The notes beneath the pieces were generated by a model. The model made no database searches. It was not told the origin of the DNA and saw only the letters and a list, made by a program, of their open reading frames with translations. Below are positions 4,926-62,532 of a DNA stretch of 64,000 nt, in pieces (the stretch's first letter is position 1; the number at the start of each line of letters is the position of its first letter). This stretch comes from Liolophura sinensis (Eukaryota; Mollusca; Polyplacophora; Chitonida; Chitonidae), in contig NC_088302.1 in assembly GCF_032854445.1 (NCBI RefSeq), forward strand, positions 2,534,023-2,598,022, given 5' to 3'. The position numbers and the translations under genes were made by a program.

Positions 4926-5087
4926 ATAAAAGTTCGACTTGCATGCAGTAGAGTGAAGACGTGCCTTTAAGCTCCGGTGTTTTTCTGGATTTTCAGAGGT
5001 GCCTTGTAAATTTGACTGTACATACATTGTGTGTGTTTTTTGTCATTGTACAGAGTTTGTAGTTTACATTACTTTTTTTTCCTGCAG
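4926..5087. other. Left flank of the 48-bp satellite
   Basis: Unrecognised sequence between the point where copy A breaks off and the satellite. It ends in a T-rich run and cctgcag. No target-site duplication matching 14090 could be seen. Confidence 0.4.
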
Positions 5088-8000: not shown

Positions 8001-11000
8001 TTAGTCTGTTTTGATTTTATACGGTTAGGTATAGGTTGACGTTTTGGGGTAGGCTGTTTTGATTGTATACATTCAGGTATAGGTTGACGTTTTGGGGTTG
8101 GCTGTTTTGATTGTATACATCCTTTTATAGGTTGAGGTTTAGGGGTAGGCTGTTTTGATTTTATACATTCAGGTATAGGTTGAGGTTTAGGGGTAGGCTG
8201 TTTTAATTGTATACAGTTATGTATAGGTTAAGGTTTTGGGGTAGGCTGTTTTGATTGTATACAGTCAGGTATAGGTTAAGGCTTAGGGGTAGGCTGTTTT
8301 AATTGTATACAGTTAGGTATAGGTTGACGTTTTGGGGTAGGCTGTTTTGATTGTATACATTCAGGTATAGGTTGACGTTTTGGGGTTGGCTGTTTTGATT
8401 GTATACATCCTTTTATAGGTTGAGGTTTAGGGGTAGGCTGTTTTGATTTTATACATTCAGGTATAGGTTGAGGTTTAGGGGTAGGCTGTTTTGATTGTAT
8501 ACAGTCAAGTTTGGGTTGAGGATTAGGGGTAGGCTGTTTTGGTTGTATACAGTCAGGTATAGGTTGAGGTTTAGGGGTAGGCTGTTTTGACTGTATACAG
8601 TCAAGTGTGGGTTAAGATTTAGGGGTAGGCTTTTTCCATTGTATACAGTCAAGTATGGGTTAAGATTTACGGGTAGGCTGTTTTGATTCTATACAGTCAG
8701 TTATAGGTTGAGGTTTTGGGATAGACTGTTTTGATTGTATAAAACTAGGTATAGGTTATAGTTTAGTTGTAGGCTGCTTTTATTGTATACAGTCAAGTTT
8801 GGGTTGAGGATTATGGGTAGGCTGTTTTGGTTGTATACAGTCAGGTATAGGTTGAGGTTTAGGGGTAGGCTGTTTTGACTGTATACAGTCAAGTGTGGGT
8901 TAAGATTTAGGGGTAGGCTTTTTCCATTGTATACAGTCAAGTATAGGTTAAGATTTACGGGTAGGCTGTTTTGATTGTATACAGTCAAGTATAGGTTGAG
9001 GTTTTGGGGTAGGCTGTTTTAATTGCATACAGTCTGGTGCAAGTTGAGGTACTGGGTTAGGCTGTTTTGACTGTATACAGTCAAGTGTGGGTTAAGATTT
9101 AGGGGTAGGCTGTCTTCCCTGTATACAGTCAGGGATAGGTTGATATTTAGGGGTAGGTTGTGTTGATTGTATACAGTGAGGTAAAGGTTGAGGTTTAGGG
9201 GTAGGCTATTTTGACCGTATACTGTTAAGTGTGGGTTAAGATTTAGGGTTAGGCTGTTTTGATTGTATACAATCAGGTATAGGTTGAGGTTTAGGGGTAG
9301 GCTGTTTTGACTGTATAGAGTCAAGTGTGGGTTAAGATTTAGGGATAGGCTGTTTTTATTGTATACAGTCAAGTATGAGTTAAGATTTAGGGGTAGGCTG
9401 TTTTGATTGCATACAGGCTGGTATAGGTTGAGGTTTTGGGTTAGGCTGTTTTGATTGTATAAAGTTAGTTATACGTTGGGGTTTAGGGGTAGGCTGTTTT
9501 CATTGTATACAGTCAGGTATAGGTTGAGATTTAGGGGTATTCTGTTTTGATTGTATACAGTCAAGTATAGGTTGTGGTTTTGGGGTATGCTGTTTTCATC
9601 GCATACAGTCAAATATTGATTGAGGTTTAGGGGTAGGCTGTTTTTATTGTGTACAGTTAGGTATAGATTGAGGTTTTGGGGTAGGCTGTTTTGATTGTAT
9701 ACATTCAGGTATAGGTTGAGGTTTTGGGGTTGGCTGTTTTTATTGTATACAGATAGGTATAGGTTGAGGTTTTGGGGTAGGTTGTTTTGATTGTATACAT
9801 TCAGGTATAATTCGAGGTTTTGGGGTAGGCTGTTTTGATTGTATACATTCAGGTATAGGTTGAGTGTTAGGGTTAGTCTGTTTTGAATTTATACAGTTAG
9901 GTATAGGTTGACGTTTTGGGGTAGGCTGTTTTGATTGTATACATTCAGGTATAGGTTGACGTTTTGGGGTTGGCTGTTTTGATTGTACACAATCAGGTAT
10001 AGGTTGAGGTTTTGGGTTAGGATGTTTTGATTGTATACAGTCAGGTATGGGTTGAGGTTTAGGTGTAGACTGTTTTGATTGTACACAGTTAGGTATAGGT
10101 TAAGATTTTGTGGTAGGCTGTCTTGATTGTATACGGTCAGATATGGGTTAAGATTTAGGGATAGGCTGTTTTGATTGTATACAGTTAGGTGTAGGTTGAG
10201 GTTTAGGGGTAGCCTGTTTTCATTATATACAGTCAAGTATGGGTTTAAGATTTAAGGGTAGGCTGTTTTGATTGTATACAGTCAGGTATAGGTTGAGGTT
10301 TAGGTGTAGGCTGTTTTGATTGTATACAGTTAGGTATAGGTTGAGGTTTATTGGTAGGCTGTTTTGAATGTATAAAGTTATGTATGGGTTGAGGTTTTGT
10401 GGTAGGCTGTTTTGATTTTATACAGTTATGTATAGGTTGAGGTTTTGGGGTAAGCTGTTTTGATTGTATACATTAAGGTATAGGTTGAGGTTTAGGTGTA
10501 GGCTGTTTTGATTGTATACAGTTAGGTATAGGTTGAGGTTTATTGGTAGGCTGTTTTGAATGTATAAAGTTATGTATGGGTTGAGGTTTTGGGGTAGGCT
10601 GTTTTGATTGTATACATTTAGGTATAGGTTGAGGTTTAGGTGTAGGCTGTTTTGATTGTATACAGTTAGGTATAGGTTGAGGTTTATTGGTAGGCTGTTT
10701 TGAATGTATAAAGTTATGTATGGGTTGAGGTTTTGGGGTAGGCTGTTTTGATTGTATACAATCAGGTATAGGTTGAGGTTTTGGGGTAGGCTGTTTTGAT
10801 TGTATACAGTGAGGTATAGGTTGAGGTTTTGGGGTAGGCTCTTTTGATTGTATACAGTGAGGTATAGGCTGAGGTTTAGGGGTAGGCTCTTTTGATTTTA
10901 TACAGTTAGGTATAGGTTGAGGTTTAGATGTAGGCTGTTTTGATTGTATACAGTTAGGTATAGGTTGATGTTTAGGGATGGGCTCTCTTGATTGTATACA

Positions 11001-11718
11001 GTTAGATATGGGTTAAGATTTAGGGGTAGGCTGTTTTGATTGTATACAGTTAGGTTTAGGTTGAGGTTTAGGGGTAGGCTGTTTTGATTGTATATAGTTA
11101 GGTATGAGTTGAGGTTTAGGGGTAGGCTGTTTTCATTGTATACAGTCAAGTATGGGTTAAGATTTACGGGTAGGCTGTTTTGATTGTTTACAGTCAGGTA
11201 TAGATTGAGGTTTTTTGGGGTAGGCCGTTTTGATTGCATAAAGTTAGGTATACGTTGAGGTTTAGGGTTAGGCTGTTTTGAATGCATACAGTTAGGTATA
11301 GGTTGAGGTTTAGGGTTAGGCTGTTTTGAATGTATGCAGTTAGGTATGGGTTGAGTTTTAGTGTTAGGCTGTTTTGATTGTATACAGTTAGGTATAGGTT
11401 GAAGTTTAGGGGTAGGCTGTTTTAAATGTATACAGTTAGGTATGAGTTGAGGTTTAGGGGTAGGCTGTTTTCAATGTATACTGTTATTTATGGGTTGAGG
11501 TTTAGGGTTATGCTGTTTTGAATGTATACAGTTAGGTATAGGTTGAGGTTTAGGGTTAGGCTGTTTTGAATGTATACAGTCAGGTATGGGTTGACGTTTA
11601 GGGTTAATCTGTTTTCATTGTATACAGTTAGGTATAAGTTGAGGTTTTGAGGTAGGTTGTTTTGATTGTATACAGTCAGGTATAGGTTGAGGTTTAGGGG
11701 GAGGCTGTTTCGATTGTA
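5088..11718. repeat. 6.6-kb satellite of 48-bp units (~138 copies)
   Basis: The monomer on the plus strand reads like ggtaggctgttttgattg followed by tatacagtcaggtatagg and ttgaggtttagg, 48 bp in all. Since 48 is 16 codons and most minus-strand units lack stops in one frame, long minus-strand frames arise (271 and 323 codons at 5774-6589 and 6913-7884). They translate as a 16-residue repeat like LTVYNQNSLPLNLNLY. Stops and frame shifts break them, they have no non-repeat part, and substitutions are not confined to third positions, so I call this non-coding. A variant block (gggatagactg...tataaaactagg) recurs at about 5791, 6942 and 8718, spacings of about 24 and 37 units, so there is higher-order structure. 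Confidence 0.95.
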
Positions 11719-12036
11719 TGTACACATTCATTTAGTGCTATTAACACGAGCTCCTGTTGTTCATGCCAATTGCCAGGTAATGGCGGGTAAGCAAAGCTGG
11801 TCTGGCTCTTTATCTGTTTCTCCTGTCAAGGGAACTACTGTATTTATAAATGCGATTGTTCTTTGGGCCAGCTAAACCCACTGAGATTAGGTAAAGCCCT
11901 ACAGCAGGTCACCATAAAATCTATCTGCTGGTTATTTGGCTATTGGATGTGGTGACACTAGACAAACCCAGTCTTTTCTCTCTTGTAGTAACATTATGGG
12001 AATTGACTTGAATGTGTTTAGAATGAGAAAACAATT
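11719..12036. other. Unrecognised sequence after the satellite
   Basis: A short frame of 69 codons overlaps the satellite edge but carries no recognisable motif. Nothing else is seen. Confidence 0.4.
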
Positions 12037-33234: not shown

Positions 33235-34353
33235 TTACTCTTCATTTCGTCCGCAGAGCTTCCAAAGCGCTGCCCTAAAGCGGCGACCTCGAGCCACGTA
33301 TATGTAAAAGTTAAGGCTGTAGTTTGTGAATTGAAGCAGGTAGCAAATCGTCCACACAAGGTCCATTCTGGCCTTAACCGCCGGTTCATTCTTCAAGATG
33401 TCACTCATAAACGTGTCCAGGATGAAATAGACGGACACGGGGATAGTCGTCACGAGGAAGTAGAAATTGACGGCCAGTAACATCAGCGTTATACTACTGA
33501 CACTGGAGTTGCCATTACTTTTACTCTTCTCCATATCCGCCGGTCCCAGGCCTTTGTGACGGGAGACGTTACCATGGACTTCCCGGACTATGACAATATT
33601 ACATCCTAACATCACTGAGAATGGTAACACAGCCAAAACGAACAAGTCGATCCACACGAAAACGTGCTCATCGAAGAAATATATAGCATCTCCTTCGAAC
33701 GATCCGCACGAACCGTCTGGACCGATTCTTTGAGTGAATAAGAGGTATCCGTTGATGACTGTCAGTATTATCATGATGACGACAATGGCAATTCTGGCCC
33801 GCTTGATGGTGACTAAAGTACCAGCTCGCAGAGAAAATCGGATCACTATGCACCTCTCCACCGTCACAGCAGCCAGCGTCCACGAGGACAAATCCATAGA
33901 AAAGTAAGTGAGAAAGAACATAATCTTGCAGCCGGGATCCGATAGCGTTCTGAGGTCTATACTGAAGGTCTTCTGGAGCCAGTAGTGCAGTAACACCACG
34001 ATGAGAACAGAACAGTCCGACAAGGCCATGATGAAAAAGAAAAACAAGGCAACGCTTTGAGTGAATTTCATGACACGGAGTACTGCCATGACAAGGATAT
34101 TTCCTGCCAGTCCTATAAACAGCAACACGGGGGGTACGGTTTGCCATAGGGTCGTGTACAGCTCGCTCTCCCAATATACAGGTGGGTCAGAGGCACGGCA
34201 ACTTTTTGTCAAGTTGTGCACAGATAGGTTTGCTTGGGACTGGAAAAACTCGTTGTCACTTGTATTAGAGACTGTCATGTCGGTCAGCGAAGTGAGGTTG
34301 CAGGGTTCCGTGTGGTTACCCCATGATGTATTACCTCTCCAGTCTGTTGCCAT
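33235..34353 (-). CDS. Rhodopsin-class GPCR, peptide-receptor-like, intronless
   Basis: Complete 372-aa frame without introns. The extracellular N-terminus (1-70) has six N-glycosylation sequons (N8, N13, N19, N30, N42, N47). Seven membrane segments follow. TM1 (about 71-92) has GN85ILV and TM2 has LSD113. TM3 starts after C142, which probably pairs with C216 of loop 2. TM3 ends ERC (166-168) in place of D/ERY. TM5 (WIDLFVLAVLPFSVMLG) keeps its proline, and TM6 has the P of TTIPVSVYF. TM7 reads NYSLNFYIY, so the NPxxY proline is Phe. Helix 8 is RGRRFRAALWKLCGR. The NxxNFxxY form is known from several invertebrate neuropeptide and orphan receptors. It would act at the plasma membrane through G proteins. 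The ligand cannot be named. The ATG at 34353 has a fair Kozak context (gcagaaATGG). Confidence 0.93.
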   Translation of the reverse strand: MATDWRGNTSWGNHTEPCNLTSLTDMTVSNTSDNEFFQSQANLSVHNLTKSCRASDPPVYWESELYTTLWQTVPPVLLFIGLAGNILVMAVLRVMKFTQSVALFFFFIMALSDCSVLIVVLLHYWLQKTFSIDLRTLSDPGCKIMFFLTYFSMDLSSWTLAAVTVERCIVIRFSLRAGTLVTIKRARIAIVVIMIILTVINGYLLFTQRIGPDGSCGSFEGDAIYFFDEHVFVWIDLFVLAVLPFSVMLGCNIVIVREVHGNVSRHKGLGPADMEKSKSNGNSSVSSITLMLLAVNFYFLVTTIPVSVYFILDTFMSDILKNEPAVKARMDLVWTICYLLQFTNYSLNFYIYVARGRRFRAALWKLCGRNEE

Positions 34354-38137
<3,784 letters not shown>

Positions 38138-46737: not shown

Positions 46738-49700
46738 TCAGTTTGATTTGTTTTTGTACCGCAGCGTGGTATCTTTTGTTTTTGGCAATTGTGACTCGTA
46801 GTAGGTCAGTTTCACATATGGATATCTCATAGGCAGGAACCAATACTCGAAGTTGTAAAACAGATAAAACTTTCTGTCCGTCCAGATCTCCATAGCTGCT
46901 TCCACAAGGCTCTTGATAAGGTTTGGAAACGTCTGGTGGGATTGGAACTTCCTGTAAAAGTCGATGATGTCGGCCGCCAATGTCTTGTTTCCTGCTGGGC
47001 CGAAGATCACGGTGGCATTGCCCAGGTACACCGGCTCATCAGCATACAGGTGAATCCGAGTGTAGTTCAGGTGCACGCTACTGTTAAACTTCGCACCTAG
47101 GTCCCCAAGCTTGTCAAAAGCCCGCAAGACGAAACTAGCACAGTCGTACGAATCGAACCAGAGTTTTCCTCCTGCGAATACAAGTCAAACAATTCTTAAC
47201 ACAACGAATAGACGATGTCATTAAAAGAAGTGGATGCGATCAGGTCGTCATCTATACTCGAATCAGAAGTTTTCTGAGTCGATCTCATCCTCATAAGAAA
47301 TACTACCATTGTTCGACGTGAAGTTTTGTAAGCTTGACTCTGATCAAGACTTTTTCACTTATATGATGGCGGCCAGGTTTATGGGTGACAGAAACCGGAT
47401 TGCCCGGTAGGGCCTATAAACCACAGTCCCGCCAGGTACTAGTACCTAACGAAACTCCTGACATAAAACCGCGCCCCAAATTGCCAGTACTGGATTCGAA
47501 CAAGCGGTTTCATTAGTCAAAGGCCCGCAGGTCACATCGGACCAGCGCCTTGTCGTTACACGGGCGCAATTCGGTGCAAGATTTACGTCCAAGTTGAAGA
47601 GTGCTGTAGCTCTGATCTGATAGATATTATTGGTGGTTGATACACTACAAGTTTATCCACCGTTATTTTGCATCTAGTTAAAATATAGTTTTACATTTTT
47701 TAGGTAAAAAAAATTTTTGTCCATTTAACATTCCTGGTACGTAGATAACCGTATCAACTTTCTGGGTTCCCAATAACAGTAGTGTAATTTTTACTTTTGC
47801 CTTGAGCCATATAATATTTTAGTTTGAGTGCAAGCTTCGTATCAATATATTGCTGACATTAAAAACAACAACAAAACATTTTTCCTCTTTCTTAACGGCT
47901 GCGGGATTTAGGCTAGGCCGAGTCTGAATACAAAGTACATGTACTCGTGCTGAGTTGTAGCGTGTAGAGTGGAACGCTGCAATGTGAGCAGTGTGTTTAT
48001 AAATGTTCCAAGCGATTAGACACGATACAAAATGTTCAGGACTCATGATGTGCGCTGATTACGACCCTAATCTAATACAGTTTAGAGGTATACAACTCCA
48101 AGAATCACGTCCTATACTTAATGGTCACCACCCAGTCATGTTGGAACAGAGATGTTCCAAATGGCAATTCCTGTCACGGAATATTAAGCAATGAACAACC
48201 TTCAGTTTTCCCTTTTATCACATTACAAAGTCATACATCATACCTATTTCTAACCTTGCGTGACTTTGAGGTTTACTTTACACACTGGCATACACACGTA
48301 TAATGGCTAAACCTATTCATCTCTTTCAGTAACAAAAAAACTTGAAAGTGCATCAGAATAAAGGTCCAAACATCAATAGCCCTGATTACTACAGCTTTTT
48401 CATCAAAGAGGGTCTTCAAACACTGAACCCTAAGCATATTAACATAAGTAAATGCACATTCTGCAGTTTAGAATGAATTTCAGTGGGCGACGCTTGTAGC
48501 TTTTGTGTAGAAACAACATGCTCCTTGAAAATCTGAAAGAACACTAATAGGCTATTACAAAAGAACAGCAATCGACCGAAGAACATCTTAGCCTAGGGAT
48601 ATGGGTCACCATAATCACACTTTAACACCAGCTAAACAGACATCTACAATACAATGACACTGAATTATAGAGCGCATTTAATTATAAAAACAGCCTATAA
48701 ATACACGAAGATATTGATTTTCAAACAAGTACATTACATCTGTGCTTTGCATTAATCTTAAAAAGCTTTGTATTTGCATTTTTCTTTCATCCACACACAT
48801 TTCAGAGGTGAACAAATGGACTTGACAAGAAATGTACTTCATAACACAATGATATAATGCGATTTAATGTGATAATACCCGTGAGAGGTTGTTTTTATCT
48901 CCTTCTTTATTTTGTTTTTTACCTGGCTTCTCTTCTACAGTCCACGTCTCATAGTAAATCCCTGTATTGTTGTCAGTCTCTAACCACTTCCCAAATTCGT
49001 TAAACTGTTTTCCTGGAGAAAAGAAAAAGAAAAATATTGCAAGTCACAAAATACCCGTCGTCCATGGGCATGCTTCCTGACTTGTCCATGTATATGACTA
49101 TAGGTGCACACGAACAAGTCTGCTTGAAGGCTTCAAGAAATATTGTGCTTAGAAACCTGTCAAAGTACATGACTCAATTGGTCGCCATGATTATAAAAGT
49201 ACATGACTTAAATGGCCACCATGACCATAAAAGTACATGACTCCATTGGTCGCTATGACTATAAAAGTACATGACTTAAATGGCTGCCATGACTATAAAA
49301 GTACATGACTTAAATGGTCGCCATGATTATAAAAGTACGACTTAATTGGCCGCCATGACTATAAAAGTACATGACTTAATTGGTCGCCATGATTATAAAA
49401 GTACATGACTTAATTGGTCGCCATGACTATAAAAGTACATGACTTAATTGGTCACTATGACTATAAATATACATGACTTAATTGGTCGCCATGATTATAA
49501 AAGTACGACTTAAATGGCCGCCATGACTATAAAAGTACATGACTTAAATGGCTGCCATGACTATACAAGTACATGACTTAAATGGCCGCCATGACTATAA
49601 AAGTACATGACTTAACTGGTCGCCCTGACTTAATTGGACACCATGACTTAATTGGCTGCCATGATTATAAAAGTACATGACTTAATTGGTCGCCATGACT

Positions 49701-52700
49701 ATAAAAGTACGTGACGTAATTGGTTATTTATTTATTTATTTGATTGGTGTTTTACACCGTACTCAAGAATATTTCACTTATACGACGGCGGCCAGCATTA
49801 TGGTGGGTGGAAACCAGGCAGAGCCCGGGGGAAACCCACGACCATCCGCAGGTTGCTGGAAGACCTTCCCACTTACGGCCGGAGAGGAAGCCAGCATGAG
49901 CTGGACTTGAACTCACAGCGACTGCATTGGTGAGAGGCTTCTGGGTCATTACGCTGCGCTAGCGCGCTAACCGACTGAGCCACGGAGGCCCCCACGTAAT
50001 TGGTCGCTATGACTATAAAAGTACATGACTTAATTAGTCGCCATGATTATAAAAGTACATGACTTAAATGGCCGCCATGATTATAAAAGTACATGACTTA
50101 ATTGGTCGCCACGATTATAAAAGTACATGACTTAACTGGTCGCCATTACTATAAAAGTACATGACTTAATTGGTCGCCATGATTATAAAAGTACATGACT
50201 TAAATGGCCGCCATGATTATAAAAGTACATGACTTAATTGGTCGCCATGATTATAAAAGTACATGACTTCATTGGTCGCTATGACTATAAAAGTACATGA
50301 CTTAATTGGTCGCTATGACTATAAAAACACATGACTTAGATGGTTATTTATTTATTTATTTGATTGGTGTTTTATGCCGTACTTATACCACGGCGGCCAT
50401 CATTAAGGTGGGAGGAAATGGGTCGAGCCCAAGGAAAACCCACGATCATCCGCAGGTTGTTGACAGACCTTCCCAAGGACTTAAATGGTCGCCATGACTA
50501 TAGAAGTACATGACTTAAATGGTCGCCATGACAATAAAATTACATGAGTTAAATGGTTGCCACGACTATAAAAGTATATAATTTAAATGGCCGCCATGAG
50601 TATAGAAGTACATGACTTAAATGGTCGCCATGACTATAGAAGTACATGACTTAAAGGGTCGCTATGACCATAAAAGTATATAATTTAAATGGCCACCATG
50701 ACTATATTTTTTCTAATACATCTGTGAACAAGAATGTCCAAACAAAGTATTGGATGTGCAGATCAAATGAGATTCAAAAAGTAGATCAAAGTCAATGAAA
50801 ATAGGCTTCTTCGTGACTACATCTACACATGTGGTACAAAATGTATATGGTGGCGCATTTTCCGATGAGTTCGAGAGATATAGGTTTAACAAACCTTTCA
50901 CAAATAATAACTCAATCAAATGATCCTAATGACTTAGGATAAGAAAGAAATAGGGTTCATCTCAATGCCAGTCTACAGGTGGCATAATGTTGGTAAACCT
51001 GACTAGGTACTGAATGTTGAAACAAACGGCCAGTGGTCTGGCGGACTGACGCTAATCCATCAACACAATAGGATAATTTGAATATATAATAATCTTAAAG
51101 CCACATCGGCAATATTTAAGCCATATCATGGCAGCATCGACTGATGTGTAATCATTGGCTAAAAACACATGGTATTACAAGTGTGTGAAAAAAAAATAGG
51201 TTTCAACGTAACATTGGCACAATCATCTCCAATTTTGAACTGTTCACACGGTGCACATAAATTAAGTCAATTGCAAGTTAGAGGATGTCATTATTAAGCT
51301 GAAGGGAATTATTATACCTGATAATTATTATAACAAATAAAGGCATACAAGTATTTCTTGTACATGTAAAACACCTACATGTAGTTAAAAGCCACTGAAC
51401 ATCATTGTTTCTTTATCAATCCGCCAAAATCTCAGTCCAATAAACTTATAAATGTCAGTGTACTAAACTATTTACTTCTGTCAAAACACTGTGTCTCTAC
51501 GTCATCATTAAAACTTTCCATTTCAAACAACATTTTTCATCATTAAAGGAAAAAAAACTCTAACAATCGAAGTATTCATCGCTAAACAGACCACATCAAA
51601 CTATGCGCAAAATATACTTTCATTTTTTATTGTAGATTTTTGTGAAAAGACTCAAATGCGCTCAAAGCATATGAGTTCTGAGGTAGGCTTTATGGACCTT
51701 ACTATCAGAGGTTAGGAACCCTGATGTCACAGGGAGTTTATCTAACTTTAATCCTGACACTGAATGTTGGAATAACTCTTTTTACACATGAGTAAAAGAA
51801 TACTGAAATAATATTGCGAAAAATTCCTTCTTAGATACAGTCAGTATGGCTTATAAAATCCACCACAGCATTCAAATATTTGAATGCCGTTCAACAATCT
51901 CTTTAAAAAAATCTGAAAAAAAGAATTTCAGTGATATTACACTGCACAATCTGGTCAGGTTGGCATGTTTCTCTAAACAGATCTCTTTCATGTCGCTGAG
52001 CTGTTAGTTAGGTAAACAGTTCAAGTTTAAGTTTGAAGTCCTTCATGATTTTGAGTGTAACTGTTTTGCTAAAAATCTAACAAAGTTCATATCACCTGTC
52101 CATAGGAGATGGGTATGCAGGAATATTTACATCATTGTTATCATTATTATGAAATACATACATCATAAAGATTTAAAACTTCCAGACTTTTTGCTCGCCC
52201 TAAGTATGTGTCAAGTTGGTTATACATGGTTTTCAAGACCATGTACCAAAAAAACAACAATAATGAGTATGAGTGGTTGTAAGTGTCTGATTTAGGGAGC
52301 TCAGTCACAGTATACACTGGCACCAGGCGGGACACTCCACTCTCCACTGTCACTGTATACACTGGCACCAGACAGGACACTCCACTCTCCACTGTCACAG
52401 TATACACTGGTACCAGACAGGACACTCCACTCTCCACAGTCACAGTATACACTGGCACCAGACAGGACACTCCACTCTCCACAGTCACAGTATACACTGG
52501 CACCAGACAGGACACTCCACTTTCCACAGTCACAGTATACACTGGCACCAGACAGGACACTCCACTTTCCACAGTCACAGTATACACTGGCACCAGACAG
52601 GACACACCACTCTCCACGGTCACAGTACACACTGACACCAGACAGGACACTCCACTCTCCACAGTCACAGTATACACTGGCACCAGACAGCACACTCCAC

Positions 52701-54481
52701 TCTCCACAGTCACAGTATACACTGGCACCAGACAGGACACTCCACTCTCCACAGTCACAGTATACACTGGCACCAGACAGGACACACCACTCTTCACGGT
52801 CAGAGTACACACTGACACCAGACAGGACACTCCACTCTCCACTGTCACAGTATACACTGGCACCAGACAGCACACTCCACTCTCCACAGTTCCTGGTTAA
52901 GTCCCCCCCACGCCAAGTGTCACTTTTACATCGTTATTCCTGTGCTGTTACATTTCTTATCACAGAAATATTAACCTGGCTCCATTCTTCCATCACAGAT
53001 AACTGATACAAAAAAAAGTGAGGCTACATGCATGAAAAGATTGATCTTTCAAAGTGATGAACAGTACATTACCTGTCATTTCAGCTACCTTGACCAAGGT
53101 GCCATTCTCAGCCCAGTGCTTATCGTCAATGCCTTCATAGATACACAGAGCTCCCTGATTGCACCATGTCAGACTGTCATTAGCCAACAGGTGAGGGAAA
53201 GTGCAGTTAAACAATTGGAATAATTCATACCACTCCATTGTATAGTTCAGGCCTGTCTGAGTGTTTCGAAATCCTATAGCATCGTGAATTATATTCTGAA
53301 AGACAAAATATGTCAAAAGTCATCATGAACTTGAGAAAGTAAATGTATTATGACACAAACCTGAAAGGCAGTATTTCCCATAAATGGAAGCAAACGCATC
53401 TGTGAACATACATCACCATACTAGCTTGATTTTTGTTCTTGATGCATTATTTCGTATGCCAGTGCTCTTTACTATTTGACTTGAGCAGCAACATCAGTAC
53501 TATACAATAACAAACTGCATGGGGACAACCCAAAATTGCCTAAAAACCAGCATAAATTTGATTTTCGAGGGTTCACACAAAAGACAACTTTTACCACCAG
53601 GATGCCCAAAACATGAAGTTTTAATCACTTGTAAATGAAAACTATAAAGTAACGTACAAATTTTGCTAAAAGATCTCCAAACTTGAATTCCCATACAGGA
53701 GCTTTCATAGCAAACACTTCAATGACATCAGTATCTAGATGAGGGATGGGAACCTTTCCACTGGGCAGACCAGTTGGGCAGAATGGGATCACTCCAGCCT
53801 TACAGTATGGGTTAGCCCGGGGTCTGGAAGGGAAACGTCTGAAACATACACAACACCATCTTAAATATTACTGGGAAGAGAGCTGGCATTTAATATATAC
53901 AGTGGTATATACACCAGAAAAAATGTCATGCTGCCAGTTTCATGCCAGTTTTAGTCAGAGTACTCGGACTACAATCATAACATGCACAGGTATTTATTTA
54001 ACTGATTAGGTCACGTAGCCTGTCAGAGCTATAGGCCTACTCACTGAATAGGTCTATACATTTCTTATCGGAACAGATGGTTTGCAGTGGCAGTAATCTT
54101 TGAGGTAAGTTTGTGTATTGCCCACTGGGTGTCTATTGTTAGAGGTGTCATAATGGGCAGAGGCCCTTGGCTGGTAAGGCCCTACAATGGGCAATATACA
54201 CAAACTCGCCTCAAAGATGGCTGTCATTACAAACCATCTATTCATCCACAAGAACATCAAGAATATAACAGTTATTAACACTTATATTAAAGAGAGGTGT
54301 TTGTGGCACTAATTTTCCAGATTCAGGTACCAATCAATGTTACTGTCGTGTCATCAGTTAAAATACAGAAAACTTCTTACTGGTAAGGAACTGGCCATTC
54401 TATGCTTATGCTTAATGACACCAAAACGCCAGAGACGAGCAACAGTAGATACACATGTCGTCTGCTTCCTTGTGTAGCCAT
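46738..54481 (-). CDS. CLN5: CLN5, lysosomal BMP synthase (5 exons, 342 aa)
   Basis: Exons on the minus strand: 54381-54481, 53658-53838, 53073-53295, 48923-49012 and 46738-47171. All introns are GT-AG and the phases agree, giving 1029 nt. CLN5 is a soluble lysosomal glycoprotein. The human protein makes bis(monoacylglycero)phosphate by transacylation and is mutated in neuronal ceroid lipofuscinosis. A signal-peptide-like segment ([17 protein letters not shown]) opens the protein. Conserved blocks are [81 protein letters not shown] and [13 protein letters not shown]. His98 (IIHD) and Cys209 (YDC) match the catalytic pair His166/Cys280 reported for the human enzyme. Sequons are plentiful (N111, N124, N133, N158, N183). 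Length is usual for the family without its N-terminal extension. Introns 3 and 4 hold minisatellites and SINEs. It shares a promoter with COMMD6. Confidence 0.96.
47340..47580 (-). mobile_element. tRNA-derived SINE-like element in CLN5 intron 4
   Basis: The left side has atatgatggcggccaggttt, recalling the family-B body. Further right, ggattcgaac is the reverse of a B-box (GTTCGAATCC), followed by ccagcgccttgtcg. The layout fits a minus-strand tRNA-derived SINE of a third type. The boundaries are approximate. Confidence 0.5.
49724..49993 (-). mobile_element. SINE family B, full length, 10-bp TSD
   Basis: A complete minus-strand copy from (ttat)n tail to head (cgctagcgcgctaaccgact, gagccacggaggcccc). 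The 10-bp duplication acgtaattgg at 49714-49723 and 49994-50003 is informative. Other units of the host minisatellite read acttaattgg here, so the shared cgt variant shows a true target duplication and not just the repeat. Confidence 0.95.
50344..50476 (-). mobile_element. SINE family B, truncated
   Basis: Minus-strand copy with (ttat)n tail, gattggtgttttatgccgta, and a body up to gttgttgacagaccttccca. The tRNA-like head is missing. It sits in the same 34-bp array as the full-length copy and in the same orientation. Confidence 0.9.
50707..52303. other. CLN5 intron 3, unremarkable part
   Basis: AT-rich intronic sequence with no exon-like block or repeat. Confidence 0.6.
52304..52889. repeat. 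45-bp minisatellite in CLN5 intron 3 (13 units)
   Basis: The unit is gtcacagtatacactggcac, cagacaggacactccactct, ccaca. Thirteen copies fill 586 bp with few changes. Since 45 is a multiple of 3 and stops are rare, frames of 190-246 codons are open on both strands ([15 protein letters not shown]-like on plus). They lie wholly inside a CLN5 intron and are repeat artefacts. Confidence 0.95.
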
Positions 54482-54561
54482 CTTCGGCGTGTGTCACATG
54501 ACAGCTGATCGGGTCACATGACAGTACAAGTCACATGATAGCGTTGACAGTAGAGTACAAA
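54482..54561. promoter_or_regulatory. 80-bp bidirectional promoter, three M-box/CLEAR-like sites
   Basis: It lies between the divergent ATGs of CLN5 (54481, minus) and COMMD6 (54562, plus). Three near-identical elements are present: GTCACATGAC at 54493-54502, GTCACATGAC at 54513-54522 and GTCACATGAT at 54530-54539. Read on the other strand the first two are GTCATGTGAC, the M-box form bound by MITF/TFE-family bHLH-Zip factors. The related CLEAR consensus of lysosomal genes is GTCACGTGAC. Both start codons sit in AAGATGGC/AAAATGGCGGC strings that resemble YY1 sites. Binding is inferred, not shown. Confidence 0.75.
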
Positions 54562-57500
54562 ATGGCGGCTATTGTGCAAAATGCTCCGCAAGGTAAATTC
54601 TCATTATTGGACCATGGTTTAAATAGTTTTGCCATATAGCAGAAAGTAAGGCTGAAAGATTAACTTAGGCATAGCTTACACATTGTCTTAAGCAACTGAA
54701 ACAGAAACTGGTGTGGTTTGTCTGAATGTAAGCCCGCTAAGAGTCACGAAAACTGAGCTAACAGTGACACTACTGTGCCTACGAGTGTTAGTCTGTTATC
54801 TGAATCTGCTTGCCTCTCCGTGTGCCATTTATTGGGAGGAAGGATTGGGTAGGAGGTGATAATGATCACAATCAGCGTTGGGAAAATACATGTAGTTCCA
54901 TGTATCAGATGTGAAACACGGTACCTAATGCAGGTTCTTTTGTAACGGGAGCAGCTTTCCAGTGCTTATACTACCAGTAGCTAGCGGGAATTTCCCTTTA
55001 ACTCAGTTGGTAGAGAGCAGGACTTCGGCTGCAGAGACCCGAGTTCGATTCTTTGAGTGACCCCTGTAGTGAAATCCTTCAACCATTACACTGGTGCCTT
55101 GACCTAACAGGTTCCAAGAAGCGTGGAGCCCTGGGCCTGCGAATGTGAGTGTATCTTGGGAGAGGGGGAAGAATTTAAGTGGGAAGGAGTGTAATGGGAG
55201 CAACTTTCCAGTGCTTGTAGTGGCAGTAGCTAGCGGGAATTTCACTTTAGCTGAGTTGATAGAGCGCTGGACTTCGGCTGCAGAGACCCGAGTTGGAATC
55301 CTTGTGTGACCCACACAGTGAAATCCTTCAACCATTATACTTTCAGGCTACATGCATCAAATGAGAATCTTTATGTGTTTTAGTGAAATGATTTTGAGCA
55401 TGGCACAAGACAGAAACAGTACAGAAAAGACAACATGTATATGCTTATTATTAGTTTTAGTTTACAACAATTTTCTCTGTATTTTCCAGGTACTGGAAAA
55501 GCAGCAGATTTGCTGAATCAGCTACCAGAAGATATCCTTGCAGAAATGGTAAGAGCAGTAAACCAGAGCATCTGGAGTTAACTAGATGTAACCCTCATTG
55601 CCATATATATGATGGAAACTGAAAGCAGTAAATAATAATTTAACCCTTATTATAGCTTCATATTATGCACATACATAAGTATGTCCACATATATATGTAA
55701 ATAAAAGTTACAATGCAAGTAGGAAGAAAGTAATTACTCAGTTTACGGTCATAACAGTACATTACAAGAGATCTGAAAAGAACCAAGAATATATGTAGTT
55801 TACCATCATATCCAACACTTTGCTAATGTTGATGATGAAATATTTGATCCGAGGTTGATATATCCATAGTTTAGCTAGTTTACATCGTTTTTACATATAC
55901 AATGATCTTACATGTTGTGCACTGTCTGTTTCAGTGCCAGGATGTTATGAGAGTTTTGCAGTACAAGCTCAGCTGTGTTAATATTAAATCATTCACTCAG
56001 GTCAGTTTATCTTGGTATATCTGCTAAGTTTTATATACTTTCATGAAGCTGGATCATTGTAAATTATTTTCATAGATTGCAACAAGTGTAAAAAGCTGAA
56101 CACATCACTGAGATAACAACTTCATGTGGGTAAGAGATTGCCTGAAAAAAGGAGCATGAATTGTTGAATAGACTGTAAAGACAAAATGTATCCAATGCTC
56201 ATATATTGCCAGTATGAGAAAGGTACATGTTGAGGTATTTGCTGTACTGTGTAATCATGGTATCTGCTGTTTTGTTTATGTTGTGCCAACTTCCCTGAGG
56301 CATACTGTACATCCCATTCATGTTGAAAATGAATTAGGAATAAAGCTGAGGTTTAATAAATTATTATGATCATATTGTCCTGATGAGGAAAACCATGATT
56401 AATGGTATCAGGTTAAATCTGAAGAAATGCCAGGTACAGTTCAGACTCAGAGCTGCTTTAACATTATCTGATTTCATCAACAACCAGTTTTGATTTTTGT
56501 CATACACTTATGGCTTTTTCAGAAAATAAATTCTGTAAGCAAGATTGTTGAAGATGTTTCTGTTCAAAGCTGCGTTAATGCTGTGACTTATTTATACAGG
56601 TAAGTCACTAACAATATTAATGATGTAAATAAAAAAAATAAAAATAAAAAATTTCATCAGTTTTTCCAGTAGATCTTAATGGAATTGATGGTTTTCTACA
56701 TCTAAACCATGGTGTTGTGATACTAATACAAATGACTGTTTCAGTTCATGAATTTAAATTTGATGGCAGTGATCCTCTTACCTAATAGTTATTGTTATTT
56801 ATCAATTTATTATGGGTCTATTGGTGAGAATCACCAGAGGCCCATTATAGAGGCATGAATAAATGTGAAGGAATTGGTGGAAGTAATTTCACCCAAGTAT
56901 GACTTGTCAGTGTGCTTAATGAAATAGACCGTGTGTTATGGTGAAACATTCGCCTCCTTTCGTGATGTTTTTTTGTTTTTTCTTTGTTTTGCTTTTGTTT
57001 TGTTTTTTTTGTAATTTTTTTGGTTGGGATTTATGTGTTATGATTATGCATTGAATAAAAAGCTTGATTATGTTTAGAGTCGTGCTTTCATTTACTGTTC
57101 GTTTAGTTTCATGTCACGAACAGATTATGGAACGCCCTTGCGCTATTTTTGAGGATTGTGACAGTAAATTGCAGTTAGTACCTTGATTGCCTGTGATAGG
57201 TTATGTAGAGAAAAGATTTACACCATGTAAAGTAGCATACGTTCGTGTATTTAACAGCTCCTGATAATATTTAGGCCTACCGCAATCGAGCGCTTTATTA
57301 GTCACCAAAATGGTGAAAATAAAGAGTATGGAAGTTATTGATGGCAGGTATGCAAGATAAGGGGCGCGAGGGCGTAAATGCACTTAAATATTAGATGATA
57401 CCCTTCTAAAATTAAAACAGAGCGTACAAAATACGCTTGACGATTTGTGTGTAAGCCTAAATTTCTGAAAGCTATAGCGTATATGCGAGATATAAAGCAA

Positions 57501-60500
57501 ACAGTCCTGTCAAAATCGAAAATAGATCTCCAAAGTAGTTTACGTGCGCCACGCTCTCCACGACATGTTGGTTTTCAGAAACTGAAGGTTACCGTAAAAG
57601 CTAATGTACCACTACCCGCAGTCATGGACAATGGCTACTGTGGTATTTGAATTTGTGACCATCTCTAGTGTTTGCTATAATCAGATGTGCCAAGGGATTT
57701 TTAAAAAAAGTGGTTATTTTGGGTTACTGTACAACAAGGTTTGCTACTGCACTGCATTAAATATTCCTGATATCGCCCCCAGCGTATCGTTTTAATTTTA
57801 CACCAATCGAGGGTCCAGTTTCCAGCGTTTACATGTATCAATGATTTCTGAGGAGAGAAGCTAATGCAATGAAATTCAGCGATCACCAGAACAGCTAGTG
57901 TTCAGAAACGGGTTAGATTTATACTATATACTGCAAATAAATAAAGCAAAATAATAAATTTTTGTCTACTAATGTAGGCCGCCTACATTTGGATTTAGCA
58001 TAATAAGTATAACAGCAGTTGTTCGTGTATACAGAAATGTTTCGGCAGGTAAATATTAATTAAAAGTCGCATAAGGCAGGTTACCGTAGAATGAAACAAT
58101 ACTGCAACCCCTGCTATCAAAACAAAATGAAAACATAAAATTGTCAGTGATCAAGTCAGTTAATGGAATAAAGCCAGTAGGCCTACAGGTTGAGGTGTAG
58201 TAAATAAATGCAGACCTTTGAGTGTCATTCAGATTCATTCCTCGTGAGAAAGAGCTGAATTAATTAGTTTATTCTAGAATGTTATGACAAGTCGTAATTC
58301 TGGGAAAATGGCATGTACATACATATACTTGGAGTCCTATATGTAACAAGAAGAATCTCTGTACCGGTAGGTTGATGCAGGCCCATAACTGTATGCACAT
58401 GTATGTCTTCCGAATGCCTCAACCCCCCCATCACTGAATCAACTTCACGCTTTCCAGGTGTATTGCTGGGCACCCAAAAAAGTGAAGTATTGGGTATTTT
58501 TTTTAAAATCTGTCCTGCGGTAGGCCTACCCAGTACTGCACTACCTCTGAAAATTGTATGGAGCATTGCTTGACCCCTTGGATGACTGCCCAATAGTTGA
58601 TCTTCCTAATTGCATGAATGCCAACAGACTTATTATGCAGAGTTTTTCCTGGCCCCTGGAAGAAGTTATTTTGAGTTGTGGAATGAGCTGTTAATTTTAT
58701 TTGCTGTATGTGATGAACATTTGGATATAATCCTGAAAAGATCAAAAAAAAGATTGGTAGAGTGAACATGTATTTTATGTGTCCTTGTCATATTTGTACT
58801 GTTGAGATACTGCTTACTGTACAACATAAGGACCAAAACATGTATTGTATTATTTATGATTGGTGTTTTACGCCGTACTCACTGAGATCATGGTGGCCAG
58901 CGTTTTGGTGGGAGGAAACTGGGCAGAGCCCAAATGAAAGCCGTGAACAGCTGCAGGCCTTCCCACTTACGGCCAGAGAGGAATATTGTATTATGTTATG
59001 TTGTCTTGATTTGTGGCCACATACAGCAGTGTTACAAATAATAAAGATTTTCATGTTCACACTAACTGAACAAATAAAAATGGTTACGACTTAGATGCAA
59101 GAAAAATGTGGAGAAAATGTCTATAATCTTACAGTATATCATAATGTTACATTCTCTTTAAAGTCATGTCATAATGAAGTAGGGCCGTTTCCTCCATTAC
59201 AGACAGAATAACTGATAGGTCCTTTGTGGGTTGCGAAGACCAGTGAATTGTACTAGAAGACAATTGCTCATAAGTTATAAGAAAAATAAAATATGATAGA
59301 AAAAGACCCATTAGGACCCAATAGACCCATTTCACAGCCCTTGGCTCTAGTTATCAGTTTAAATTGCCTTTGTTTATTTAACTCACAGGGAAGCTGCAAG
59401 ATCAGACTTGAATTCAGAGAACCTGTCCAAGCAGTTGGCCTCAAGTTCTTTATTCAAAAGGAATGTTGTTGATGTTTTATGCCGAATATGGGAACAACAG
59501 GTAAAAATTCAAATTTACCAGACAAATTTTATTATGAAGTAAAGTGAATTGTACTTTTCTAGTGTACATGGTAAGTACTACTGCTATCCATCCATATGCT
59601 AGAATAACTAGATGTTATAAAGTGATATGCCGAGAAGTTTTCCAACCAACAACTTAAACATTGTGTTGCAGGGGAGGTTACTCTCATCGTCAGACGTTAC
59701 ACAGCTGCTCAATGTAGGACAGGTGAGGTTCGGCTTAACTCCCTTGCTTATAATGTTGATTTATGGGTTGGAAATAAAATTAGTAAAAAGGTTGCCATTT
59801 TTTGGGGAGCTATAAGTGGTGTAATCACGTAATGATAGTACTTTACTTTACCAAGAACCACATCAGGCAGGTAATTTCACCAGCTAGTTTATAGTATCTA
59901 AGAAAATTGATCGATGAAACTCAAGATTTGTTTCGAATTTAAAAACATGTAGATGACTTATGCTTCAAATTATTTAATAGTAATAAGGATAGAATCACAT
60001 GTATGATTACCACATAGTATGCATTTAATCATAGCCAATGTTCTGTTAGTGGAATACACGTCAGTGTGGCATAAGCCCCCGTCAAGTAAAATAAATATAA
60101 TTACAATTGTTTGACAGCTGGTGGATATGAAGTGGAAACTAGGCGTTGCCATGAGCTCTGACTGCTGCCGTAACCTGAATGTTCCCTACGTGACTATAAC
60201 ATTAGTCATAGCGGACACATCAGGGAAACAGCTTACAAACACAATAGAGATGTCTGTTACAGAATTTCAGGTAATGTTGTGTACATCACCATGACATTAG
60301 TCATAGTTTCCCTCAGTCTACACACACAATAGAGATGTCTGTTACAGAATTTCAGGTAATGTTGTGTACATCACCATGATGTTAGTCATAGTTTCCCTCA
60401 GTCTACACACACAATAGAGATGTCTGTTACAGAATTTCAGGTAATGTTGTGTACATCACCATGACGTTAGTCATAGTTTCCCTCAGTCTACACGCACAAT

Positions 60501-62532
60501 AGAGATGTCTGTTACAGAATTTCAGGTAATGTTGTGTACATCACCATGACGTTAGTCATAGTTTCCCTCAGTCTACACACACAATAGAGATGTCTGTTAC
60601 AGAATTTCAGGTAATGTCGTGTACATCACCATGATGTTAGTCATAGTTTCCCTCAGTCTACACACACAATAGAGATGTCTGTTACAGAATTTCAGGTAAT
60701 GTTGTGTACATCACCATGACATTAGTCATAGTTTCCCTCAGTCTACACACACAATAGAGATGTCTGTTACAGAATTTCAGGTAATGTTGTGTACATCACC
60801 ATGACGTTAGTCATAGTTTCCCTCAGTCTACACACACAATAGAGATGTCTGTTACAGAATTTCAGGTAATGTTGTGTACATCACCATGACGTTAGTCATA
60901 GTTTTCCTCAGTCTACACACACAATAGAGATGTCTGTTACAGAATTTCAGGTAATGTCGTGTACATCACCATGATGTTAGTCATAGTTTCCCTCAGTCTA
61001 CACACACAATAGAGATGTCTGTTACAGAATTTCAGGTAATGTTGTGTACATCACCATGACATTAGTCATAGTTTCCCTCAGTCCACAAACACAATAGAGA
61101 TGTCTGTTACAGAATTTCAGGTAATGTTGTGTACATCACCATGATGTTAGTCATAGTTTCCCTCAGTCTACACACACAATAGAGATGTCTGTTACAGAAT
61201 TTCAGGTAATGTTGTGTACGTCATCATGACGTTAGTCATAGTTGCCCTCTCTCTACACACACAATAGAGATGTCTGTTACAGAATTTCAGGTAATGTTGT
61301 GTACATCACCATGATGTTAGTCATAGTTTCCCTCCGTCTACACACACAATAGAGATGTCTGTTACAGAATTTCATGTTATGTTCTGTACATCACCATGAT
61401 GTTAGTCGTAGTTTCCCTCAATCTACACACACAATAGAGATGTCTGTTACAGAATTTCATGTTATGTCCTGTACATCACCACAACGTTAGTCGTAGTTTC
61501 CCTCAGTCTACACACACATTAGAGATGTCTGTTACAGAATTTCATGTTATGTTTTGCGTGTCACTTTGACGTTAGCCATAGCAGACACGTCAGGCAAACA
61601 GTCTGCCTGCCAGCTGTGGCATTTTATACATACAACCACTATCATGGTAAGAATTACATGTAGTTACTGTGAAATGTACATTTTAAACTGGTAAACGAGA
61701 GGGAGCCAATCACCCTCTTCTGTTGTCTTGCTGCTAACTCACTCAGAGTGAAAGTTTCCAATTTGCAATATTAAACAACAGTTATTGTATTTGCGTTGTC
61801 TACGCACAGTGTAATTTCCCTGTTAAGCTATCACAAGCATTGTGCAGTGAGTCTTGACGCTGGACACCACAGCTTAACATCCACAAACCAGCAGGAAAAG
61901 TGCTTAACATCCACAAACCAGCAGCAAAAGTGTTTAACATCCACAAACCAGCAGCAAAAGTGTTTAACATCCACAAAACAGCAGGAAAAGAGCTTAACAT
62001 CCACAAACCAGCAGGAAAAGTGCTTAACATCCACAAACCAGCAGGAAAAGTGCTGAACATCCACAAACCAGCAGCAAAAGTGTTTAACATCCACAAACCA
62101 GCAGGAAAAGTGTTTAACATCCACAAACCAGCAGGAAAAGTGCTTAACATCCACAAACCTGCAGCAAAAGTGCTTAACATCCACAAACCAGCAGGAAAAG
62201 TGCTTAACATCCACAAACCAGCAGGAAAAGTGCTTAACATCCACAAACCAGCAGAAAAAGTGCTTAACATCCACAAACCTGCAGCAAAAGTGCTTAAGAT
62301 CCACAAACCAGCAGGAAAAGTTTGCTGTATAGCCTCTGAGAAGGGCATTATTAATGTATTAATATTTGCAGCACAGTGTTACATTCTCATTGAGTCTTGT
62401 GATGTAAAAAAAAAAAAAACGTTGAGGGGGAAAGTAATCTGCTGTTCAGACCTTTTAAAGATGAAACTTTTCTCATTTCAGAAATTTTCCAACCAGATGA
62501 AGGAAATAGGTTCAGTCCTTGAAACAGTGTGA
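54562..62532 (+). CDS. COMMD6: COMMD6, COMM domain protein (8 exons, 199 aa)
   Basis: Exons: 54562-54592, 55490-55548, 55935-56000, 56523-56599, 59389-59500, 59672-59722, 60118-60270 and 62482-62532. All introns are GT-AG and in phase (600 nt with stop). COMMD proteins form the Commander complex with CCDC22/CCDC93 and the retriever subunits, for endosomal recycling, and affect NF-kB signalling. The N-terminal helical part is residues 1-132. The COMM domain (133-199) starts LVDMKWKLGVAMSSDCCRNL, continues YVTITLVIADTSGKQ and IEMSVTEFQKF, and ends MKEIGSVLETV, as in COMMD6. Human COMMD6 is only about 85 aa and lacks most of the N-terminal domain, while this one has the full COMMD length. Intron 1 holds a tRNA-like repeat pair, intron 4 a SINE fragment, and intron 7 two tandem arrays, one derived from exon 7. 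Confidence 0.95.
54941..55340 (+). mobile_element. Two tRNA-like SINE units in direct repeat, COMMD6 intron 1
   Basis: Two related units start at 54941 and 55190 (gggagcarctttccagtgct, agtagctagcgggaattt). Each contains a tRNA-like A-box region (TTTAGCTGAGTTGATAGAGC in the second) and a B-box-like GAGTTCGATTC or GAGTTGGAATCC, then gtgaaatccttcaaccatta. The roughly 100-bp spacer occurs only once. Neither can fold as a complete tRNA with an acceptor stem, so I call them SINE-derived and not tRNA genes. Confidence 0.6.
56600..58851. other. COMMD6 intron 4, left part
   Basis: AT-rich intron with a T/G-rich low-complexity run at about 56965-57030. Short frames at 57447-57795 and 58282-58769 have no recognisable motifs. 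Confidence 0.5.
58852..58982 (-). mobile_element. SINE family B fragment in COMMD6 intron 4
   Basis: Minus-strand fragment: tatgattggtgttttacgcc, gtactcactgagatcatggt, gggcagagccc, cttcccacttacggccagag. It is truncated before the tRNA-like head and has internal losses. Confidence 0.85.
60271..61545 (+). repeat. 85-bp array of exon-7-derived units (15 copies), COMMD6 intron 7
   Basis: Starting at the exon 7 donor (60271), 15 units of exactly 85 bp run to 61545 without a length change. Each has intron-start sequence (gtaatgttgtgtacatcacc, atgacgttagtcatag), an acceptor-like tttccctcag, and a 39-bp copy of the exon 7 end (tctacacacacaatagagat to cagaatttcag), followed by the next donor. Units 1-12 keep CAG|GTAAT; units 13-15 read CATGTTAT. 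The AG of the acceptor is lost in units 12-14. Right of the array, 61569-61604 resembles an upstream part of exon 7 (ttagccatagcagacacgtc, aggcaaacag) missing from the inner units. The array therefore arose from a duplicated exon 7 end. Confidence 0.95.
61873..62321. repeat. 30-bp minisatellite in COMMD6 intron 7 (15 units)
   Basis: The unit is cttaacatccacaaaccagc then aggaaaagtg, with agc/agg and cca/cct variants, 15 copies in 449 bp. Its length, a multiple of 3, leaves frames open on both strands; on plus one frame even runs into exon 8. They are intronic and not coding. Confidence 0.95.

Follow-up and report, generated by a model that had tools for sequence, protein, structure and literature searches.

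An Exon/Intron-Boundary Minisatellite, Most Likely Splice-Neutral, in Intron 7 of COMMD6 in the Chiton Liolophura sinensis

Introduction

Minisatellite-like tandem duplications of exon/intron boundaries are known from amphioxus as "mirages", a name that goes back to work on Adh3 (PMC3087553). They are described there for Adh3 and the globin genes BflGb6 and BflGb9, on the donor as well as the acceptor side, with AG/GT retained in many units and with homogenised cores. Reverse-transcription polymerase chain reaction and the Adh3 data are presented there as suggesting that regular splicing is undisturbed by mirages; at the same time, it is proposed that new introns or exons can arise from such arrays if a mutation yields an acceptor. 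Here, a comparable array is described in a 64,000-nucleotide stretch of the chiton Liolophura sinensis (NC_088302.1, positions 2,534,023 to 2,598,022 of the forward strand; hereafter, the window, with positions counted from its first letter). The array resides in intron 7 of COMMD6, directly behind exon 7, and consists of tandem copies of the end of that exon joined to the start of the intron. Judging from its sequence, it is an exon/intron-boundary minisatellite of the mirage type, most likely splice-neutral (probability roughly 0.7). The latter suggestion is made because the 199-codon frame of the gene is intact without the array, the in-frame geometry of the copies is inherited from the exon, similar arrays recur in this genome, where their presence at exon boundaries is nearly to be expected, and introns of 46 nt, the distance between neighboring copied blocks, would be much shorter than the authentic introns measured.

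Other described systems resemble the COMMD6 array in part. In the Rogers model of intron gain by tandem genomic duplication (as cited in PMC3087553), coding sequence is duplicated together with splice signals, and the intron-gain case of the potato RdRp gene (PMC4974935) is reported to be of the same kind. Unlike in these systems, the COMMD6 copies lie inside an existing intron, and the intact protein needs no new intron in its coding sequence: no coding intron bounded by duplicated signals was found, the frame being complete with the array in intron 7. The array can also be likened to the internal tandem repeats reported to modify human gene structure, which lie within genes and can alter exon structure (PMC2812944).

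The likeness to the amphioxus mirages is the closest. The COMMD6 unit extends across an exon/intron boundary, running from the last part of exon 7 through the donor into the start of the intron; the array adjoins the authentic boundary, with exon 7 as the first copy and unit 1 starting at 60271; and the matrix of differences between the units displays a homogenised core from which the edges are excluded. In its anatomy, as read from the sequence, the array agrees with the mirages at every point compared. It differs in its host, a chiton, and in that the unit combines an acceptor with a donor to make up a complete in-frame cassette. Schistosome micro-exon genes carry short symmetric exons in tandem, which are included in the mRNA. 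Like them, the COMMD6 blocks are short, symmetric and tandem candidate exons, set apart by 46-nt spacers: an acceptor, a short block of 3n nucleotides and a donor occur together in 11 of the 15 units, but the 46 nt between neighboring blocks fall short of a spliceable intron length, although blocks farther apart could pair.

A search of the literature by titles and the beginnings of abstracts returned no mirage case from chitons or other molluscs, and the class was met there only in amphioxus. The mirage paper likewise treats mirages as an amphioxus phenomenon; their actual range is thus probably broader than has been reported.

The COMMD6 Gene and Anatomy of Its Array

The gene and the array consist of the following features:

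54562-62532, plus strand: COMMD6, eight coding exons with a joined frame, a COMM domain and a COMMD6 match
54562-54592, 55490-55548, 55935-56000, 56523-56599, 59389-59500, 59672-59722, 60118-60270 and 62482-62532, plus strand: exons 1 to 8 (introns 1 to 7 of 897, 386, 522, 2789, 171, 395 and 2211 nt)
60118-60270, plus strand: exon 7, whose 3' part (about 60196-60270), with the beginning of intron 7, forms the array's seed
60271-61205, plus strand: units 1-11, each with 46 nt of spacer before 39 nt of block, both splice sites intact, near-identical core
60314-60316, plus strand: acceptor CAG of unit 1, recurring every 85 bp and equal to the CAG (glutamine) codon of exon 7 at 60229-60231; matrix score 6.4
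60317-60355, plus strand: block of unit 1, 39 nt, reading STHTIEMSVTEFQ and recurring every 85 bp; 36 of 39 bases as in the exon 7 end
61206-61545, plus strand: units 12-15, the diverged 3' edge, at least one splice site gone in each
61546-61601, plus strand: partial, diverged sixteenth unit (relic), which aligns to exon 7 and retains the un-inverted, exon-like CAGACACGTCAGGCAAACAG

Joined without the array, the eight exons yield a frame of 600 nt (199 codons, no internal stops), in which exon 7 ends with codon 183 and its terminal residues are LTNTIEMSVTEFQ. The COMM domain profile matches the gene with E 2.4e-18, and the best match among solved structures is COMMD6 (E 4.7e-19). The CLN5 gene (46741-54580, minus strand; PF15014 E 1.8e-53 for the exon 46741-47184) is arranged head to head with COMMD6, its first exon being placed by eye near 54.48 kb and the first coding exon of COMMD6 starting at 54562.

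The 15 units, each exactly 85 bp long, occupy 60271-61545 and adjoin exon 7. Tandem Repeats Finder (TRF) reports a period of 85, 15.9 copies, 95% matches and a score of 2381, which places the array far beyond chance. Both the AG terminating the spacer and the CAG/GTAATG following the block are present in units 1-11; unit 12 has its donor and lacks the acceptor, units 13 and 14 lack both, and unit 15 has the AG with the donor changed to CAT/GTTATG. The block translates as STHTIEMSVTEFQ in ten of the units, with one residue different in units 3, 10, 13 and 14 and two in unit 15. Units 1-11 differ pairwise by 0-5 bases, whereas units 12, 13, 14 and 15 depart from the consensus by 5, 3, 6 and 8 changes, respectively; unit 12 differs from the other units by 5-13 bases, unit 15 by 6-13, and unit 13 is intermediate (2-9). 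A uniform core with a diverged edge is, at the level of sequence comparison, the pattern of a minisatellite.

These data bear out most of an earlier, sequence-only reading of the locus, made without database searches. The gene is COMMD6, as proposed there; the end of exon 7 and the start of exon 8 are both in phase 0 in the joined frame; fifteen 85-bp units do stand directly behind exon 7, with both splice sites intact in units 1-11 when followed unit by unit; the 39-nt, phase-0 block is nearly the exon 7 end; and reading through past that end meets a TGA at the eighth codon. Two features had escaped that reading: the descent of the right part of the spacer from exon 7, and the recurrence of arrays of this class elsewhere in the genome.

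Origin of the Unit and Its Acceptor

Besides the block, the right part of the spacer, too, was copied from the coding sequence of exon 7: ATGACGTTAGTCATAG aligns with ATAACATTAGTCATAG of the exon, and the block follows. Within this region, the exon reads CGGACACATCAGGGAAA at 60212-60228, and the unit consensus has TTTCCCT in its place, a perfect reverse complement of the seven bases with which that stretch ends:

60222-60228, plus strand: AGGGAAA of exon 7, present as its reverse complement TTTCCCT in most full units (one base changed in units 8 and 12)

The chance of a given 7-mer being such a reverse complement is 6e-5 at that exact place (4 to the power -7), 7e-4 if 11 places within the stretch are allowed and 3e-3 anywhere in a 58-nt piece of exon 7. 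TTTCCCT beside its reverse complement AGGGAAA is a pattern such as a small local inversion would leave; TTCCCT, six of the seven letters, also occurs upstream in exon 7 in direct orientation, and an origin other than inversion is conceivable. Un-inverted versions flank the array on both sides, in exon 7 and in the relic unit. The latter has the un-inverted stretch yet shares CAGTCT with the units, and by eye it looks like a side branch predating the inversion.

The acceptor AG of the unit lies in the exon's own in-frame CAG (glutamine) codon; hence, the 39-nt, phase-0 geometry comes with the copied sequence and cannot count as separate evidence of selection. The block, both at 60232-60270 and in each copy, appears nearly palindromic by eye (GAGATGTCTGTTACAGAATTTC), and such a hairpin-prone seed may favor tandem expansion.

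A plausible course of events begins with two steps visible in the sequence, i.e., the tandem copying of the exon 7 end with its donor and about 20 nt of intron and, in the full copies, the change of the 17-nt exon stretch into TTTCCCT beside the in-frame CAG, giving an acceptor-like site. The replacement may have come about by replication template switching in one copy and then spread, and unequal exchange would maintain the homogeneity of the core. Splicing would proceed from exon 7's own donor (60271) to exon 8 (62482), with the extra sites tolerated; this is suggested because a full-size exon precedes the first donor, whereas each block has a length of just 39 nt and is separated from the next by 46 nt.

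Boundary Arrays Elsewhere in the Genome

A search of the genome with the chaperonin profile PF00118 gave 50 matches, of which 35 exon matches lie in the six loci fetched and the other 15 outside them; a further 21 genome matches of proteasome exons stand outside the counts given here. Boundary arrays were found at four of the 35 CCT exon matches, three on the donor side and one on the acceptor side:

L037, G000:C1:72037868-72038478, minus strand: array at a CCT epsilon exon end, donor AAG/GTGAGT, 109-bp units
L039, G000:C8:53405557-53406162, minus strand: array at a CCT gamma exon end, donor CAG/GTGTGT, 66-bp (22-codon) units
L039, after the exon 53407400-53407582: degenerate array on the donor side
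L039, before the exon starting at 53412452 (match 53412069-53412482): acceptor-side array of 41-bp units with TATGTACAG

For the three donor-side exons, the best NCBIfam models are CCT epsilon (L037) and CCT gamma (L039), with scores under the whole-protein cut-offs, as those of single exons must be; solved structures give the same identities for the two exons tried. No tandem copies were detected by blastn (E 1e-3) at the other 31 exon matches. A later donor of the CCT epsilon array, if used, would shift the frame, 109 not being a multiple of three. The exon matches flanking the 66-bp array of CCT gamma are contiguous in the family profile (gap -2), so the normal protein skips the array; the frame is open across six downstream copies, and splicing from a later donor would therefore yield a longer protein with its frame unbroken. 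That CCT genes carry boundary arrays argues that the spliceosome copes with them.

In the 264 kb around the window, about 20% is covered by TRF arrays, and a random point falls within the 5' edge unit of an array with a probability of 0.024 (per side for a boundary). For 35 exons, 0.8 donor-side and 0.8 acceptor-side arrays would be expected, against three and one seen (p 0.05 for donors, 0.08 together). With this density of minisatellites, boundary arrays are nearly expected: they occur about as often as they should in a minisatellite-rich genome, perhaps with a mild excess at donors, and the single COMMD6 case is close to chance expectation for this genome. Screened by codon usage for exon-end arrays, the 264 kb returned eight weak, mostly low-complexity candidates; COMMD6 was absent from them, so the screen lacks power.

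The genome paper of Liolophura japonica, in its table, assigns 0.08% to "Other (simple repeat, microsatellite, RNA)" and 14.04% to unclassified repeats (PMC11068029). Given the minisatellite cover in the 264 kb, the unclassified fraction may conceal tandem repeats. The same paper lists RNA-seq from five tissues (digestive gland, foot, gill, gonad and heart).

Splice Sites of the Array and Alternative Explanations

Splice sites were scored with a generic matrix, which had also served to pick out the authentic CCT sites and thus favors these. The acceptors of units 1-11 score 6.4 (unit 8: 6.8), and the unit donors 8.0, the same as the real donor of exon 7. In local DNA, a stretch of 85 bp is expected to contain 0.21 acceptors of this strength, and 0.07 in the right frame; the two CCT boundary arrays with units scored contain none of that strength in frame. 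The 46-nt spacing, which the sequence-only reading had called short for an intron, lies well outside the lengths of 18 authentic introns (171-2789 nt), i.e., seven of COMMD6 (171-2789 nt) and 11 of CCT genes (269-2731 nt; 15 exon pairs were tried, four yielded no intron, and one of those kept, 742 nt, is a loose fit). RNA folding gave no clear signal for two units (z -0.8, 38 of 200 shuffles as stable) or for exon 7 with about ten units (z -1.4, 0 of 20 shuffles as stable), in both cases with repeats able to pair with each other. Rfam and tRNA scans of the window had no matches. The spliced exons 7 and 8 as a query had 17 matches in the 609-Mb assembly, all at the COMMD6 locus, with no retrocopy among these best-scoring candidates.

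Several observations weigh against splice neutrality. Over nine positions, the donors of units 1-12 do not differ from the authentic one, and the unit acceptors fall within the range of 14 authentic acceptors (11 CCT and three COMMD6; 4.1-12.1), four of which score below 6.4. Among 94 array-strands in the 264 kb, a clean 3n cassette is present in COMMD6 alone (0.15 expected from shuffles). The blocks are less variable than the spacers (5 of 39 vs. 14 of 46 columns; Fisher p 0.07). Decay is limited to the last four units, where it hits splice sites beyond random expectation: out of 16 changes there, two are common with units 1-11 and 14 are private, and four of the 14 affect the four essential AG/GT columns (binomial p 0.003; with a double change taken as one event, 0.02) and six on the six splice columns (p 0.0002, or 0.001 likewise), these tests having been picked post hoc with the data already seen. 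The excess of site loss at the edge is the best argument for the spliceosome seeing the sites, and it is a hint that past selection may have acted there against copies able to splice. Low-level use of micro-exons, conceivable on the sequence, belongs with these points.

Such use is the substance of the alternative that survives best, namely leaky optional micro-exons: a non-adjacent block would occasionally be included, unregulated, placing STHTIEMSVTEFQ, in frame, behind the last COMM strand and ahead of the C-terminal helix. The edge excess, the acceptor scores inside the authentic range and the sites intact in 11 of 15 units with phase 0 on both sides are in its favor. However, the pyrimidine tract of the unit is only 8 nt long, a TAG lies 10 nt upstream of the acceptor AG, and the exon 8 acceptor is stronger (9.4 vs. 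6.4). An exon of 39 nt is short for exon definition, and at the junction of the COMM sheet and the dimer helix its inclusion should hurt. On balance, leaky inclusion is unlikely, albeit worth keeping in mind. The sequence-only reading had put an array of micro-exons derived from exon 7 in the foreground, with a splice-neutral minisatellite as its alternative. The anatomical part of this proposal stands, the cassettes being in frame and copied from the exon, and their use as micro-exons is possible without being the likeliest interpretation; it is the splice-neutral minisatellite that fits the evidence best, in view of the inherited frame, the boundary arrays of CCT genes and the intact 199-codon frame.

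A more far-reaching conjecture can be formulated, according to which the inversion-made acceptor turned the array into a copy-number-variable bank of in-frame micro-exons. COMMD6 forms would then exist in which at least one extra 13-residue segment follows the last COMM strand and precedes the dimer helix, the array would represent an intermediate stage of the mirage model of exon/intron birth, and splice sites would be tandemly repeated genome-wide at several percent of exon ends. Taken as a whole, this is a speculative proposition with rather low odds.

The extra donors could also act as decoys. If a donor of units 1-12 sometimes replaced that of exon 7, the message would run into the TGA at codon 8 and presumably decay, and copy number would tune the output of COMMD6. 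The perfect likeness of the 12 donors to the authentic one fits this, and so do the genome-wide match counts of donor-word triplets against a reversed-word control (3386 vs. 626 and 1578 vs. 698), but these counts stem mostly from long arrays: a hand count among the matches listed for the first 2.94 Mb of C1 gives about seven donor-word arrays against five control-word ones, and outside arrays the donor words are no commoner than their reverses (11 vs. 11 and 10 vs. 26 in 314 kb). Moreover, the authentic donor is the nearest to the exon's own acceptor. Decoy action is accordingly improbable. Acceptor-word triplets numbered 306 against 115 for the control, the acceptor word itself being commoner than its reverse outside arrays (28 vs. 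5).

A selected, regulated micro-exon array making COMM domains with variable numbers of repeated segments, which the phase-0 symmetry and the near-identical blocks might call to mind, is hardly credible, because the phase follows from descent, neighboring blocks are 46 nt apart, two of the three block changes within units 1-11 are replacements, and the blocks of the site-losing units 13-15 are still identical to the exon 7 end at 34-35 of 39 positions (35-36 elsewhere), a persistence that would speak against selection for coding use.

Protein Consequence and Significance

In the alignment with the COMMD6 structure, the block corresponds to a human segment running into the C-terminal part of the protein. 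In the COMM domain of COMMD9 (PMC6089597), a sheet of three strands is capped by a C-terminal helix, and it is this helix that makes up much of the dimer. An insertion of 13 residues at the position of the block would be likely to interfere with assembly of the dimer.

With their arrays of identical splice sites next to the authentic site, COMMD6, CCT gamma and CCT epsilon represent a natural experiment on the choice of the spliceosome among equal donors. The COMMD6 array, in addition, offers a plausible one-step route by which a copy of coding sequence could gain an acceptor.

Other Features of the Window

61872-62321, plus strand: second minisatellite of intron 7, unrelated to the first, 30 bp x 15 (TRF)
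5087-11719: 6.6-kb minisatellite, 48 bp x 138, with a very strong GC skew of 0.46 and 0.61 in the two 4-kb bins
33238-34377, minus strand: frame of a Rhodopsin-family G-protein-coupled receptor (PF00001 E 1.5e-23), open in one piece

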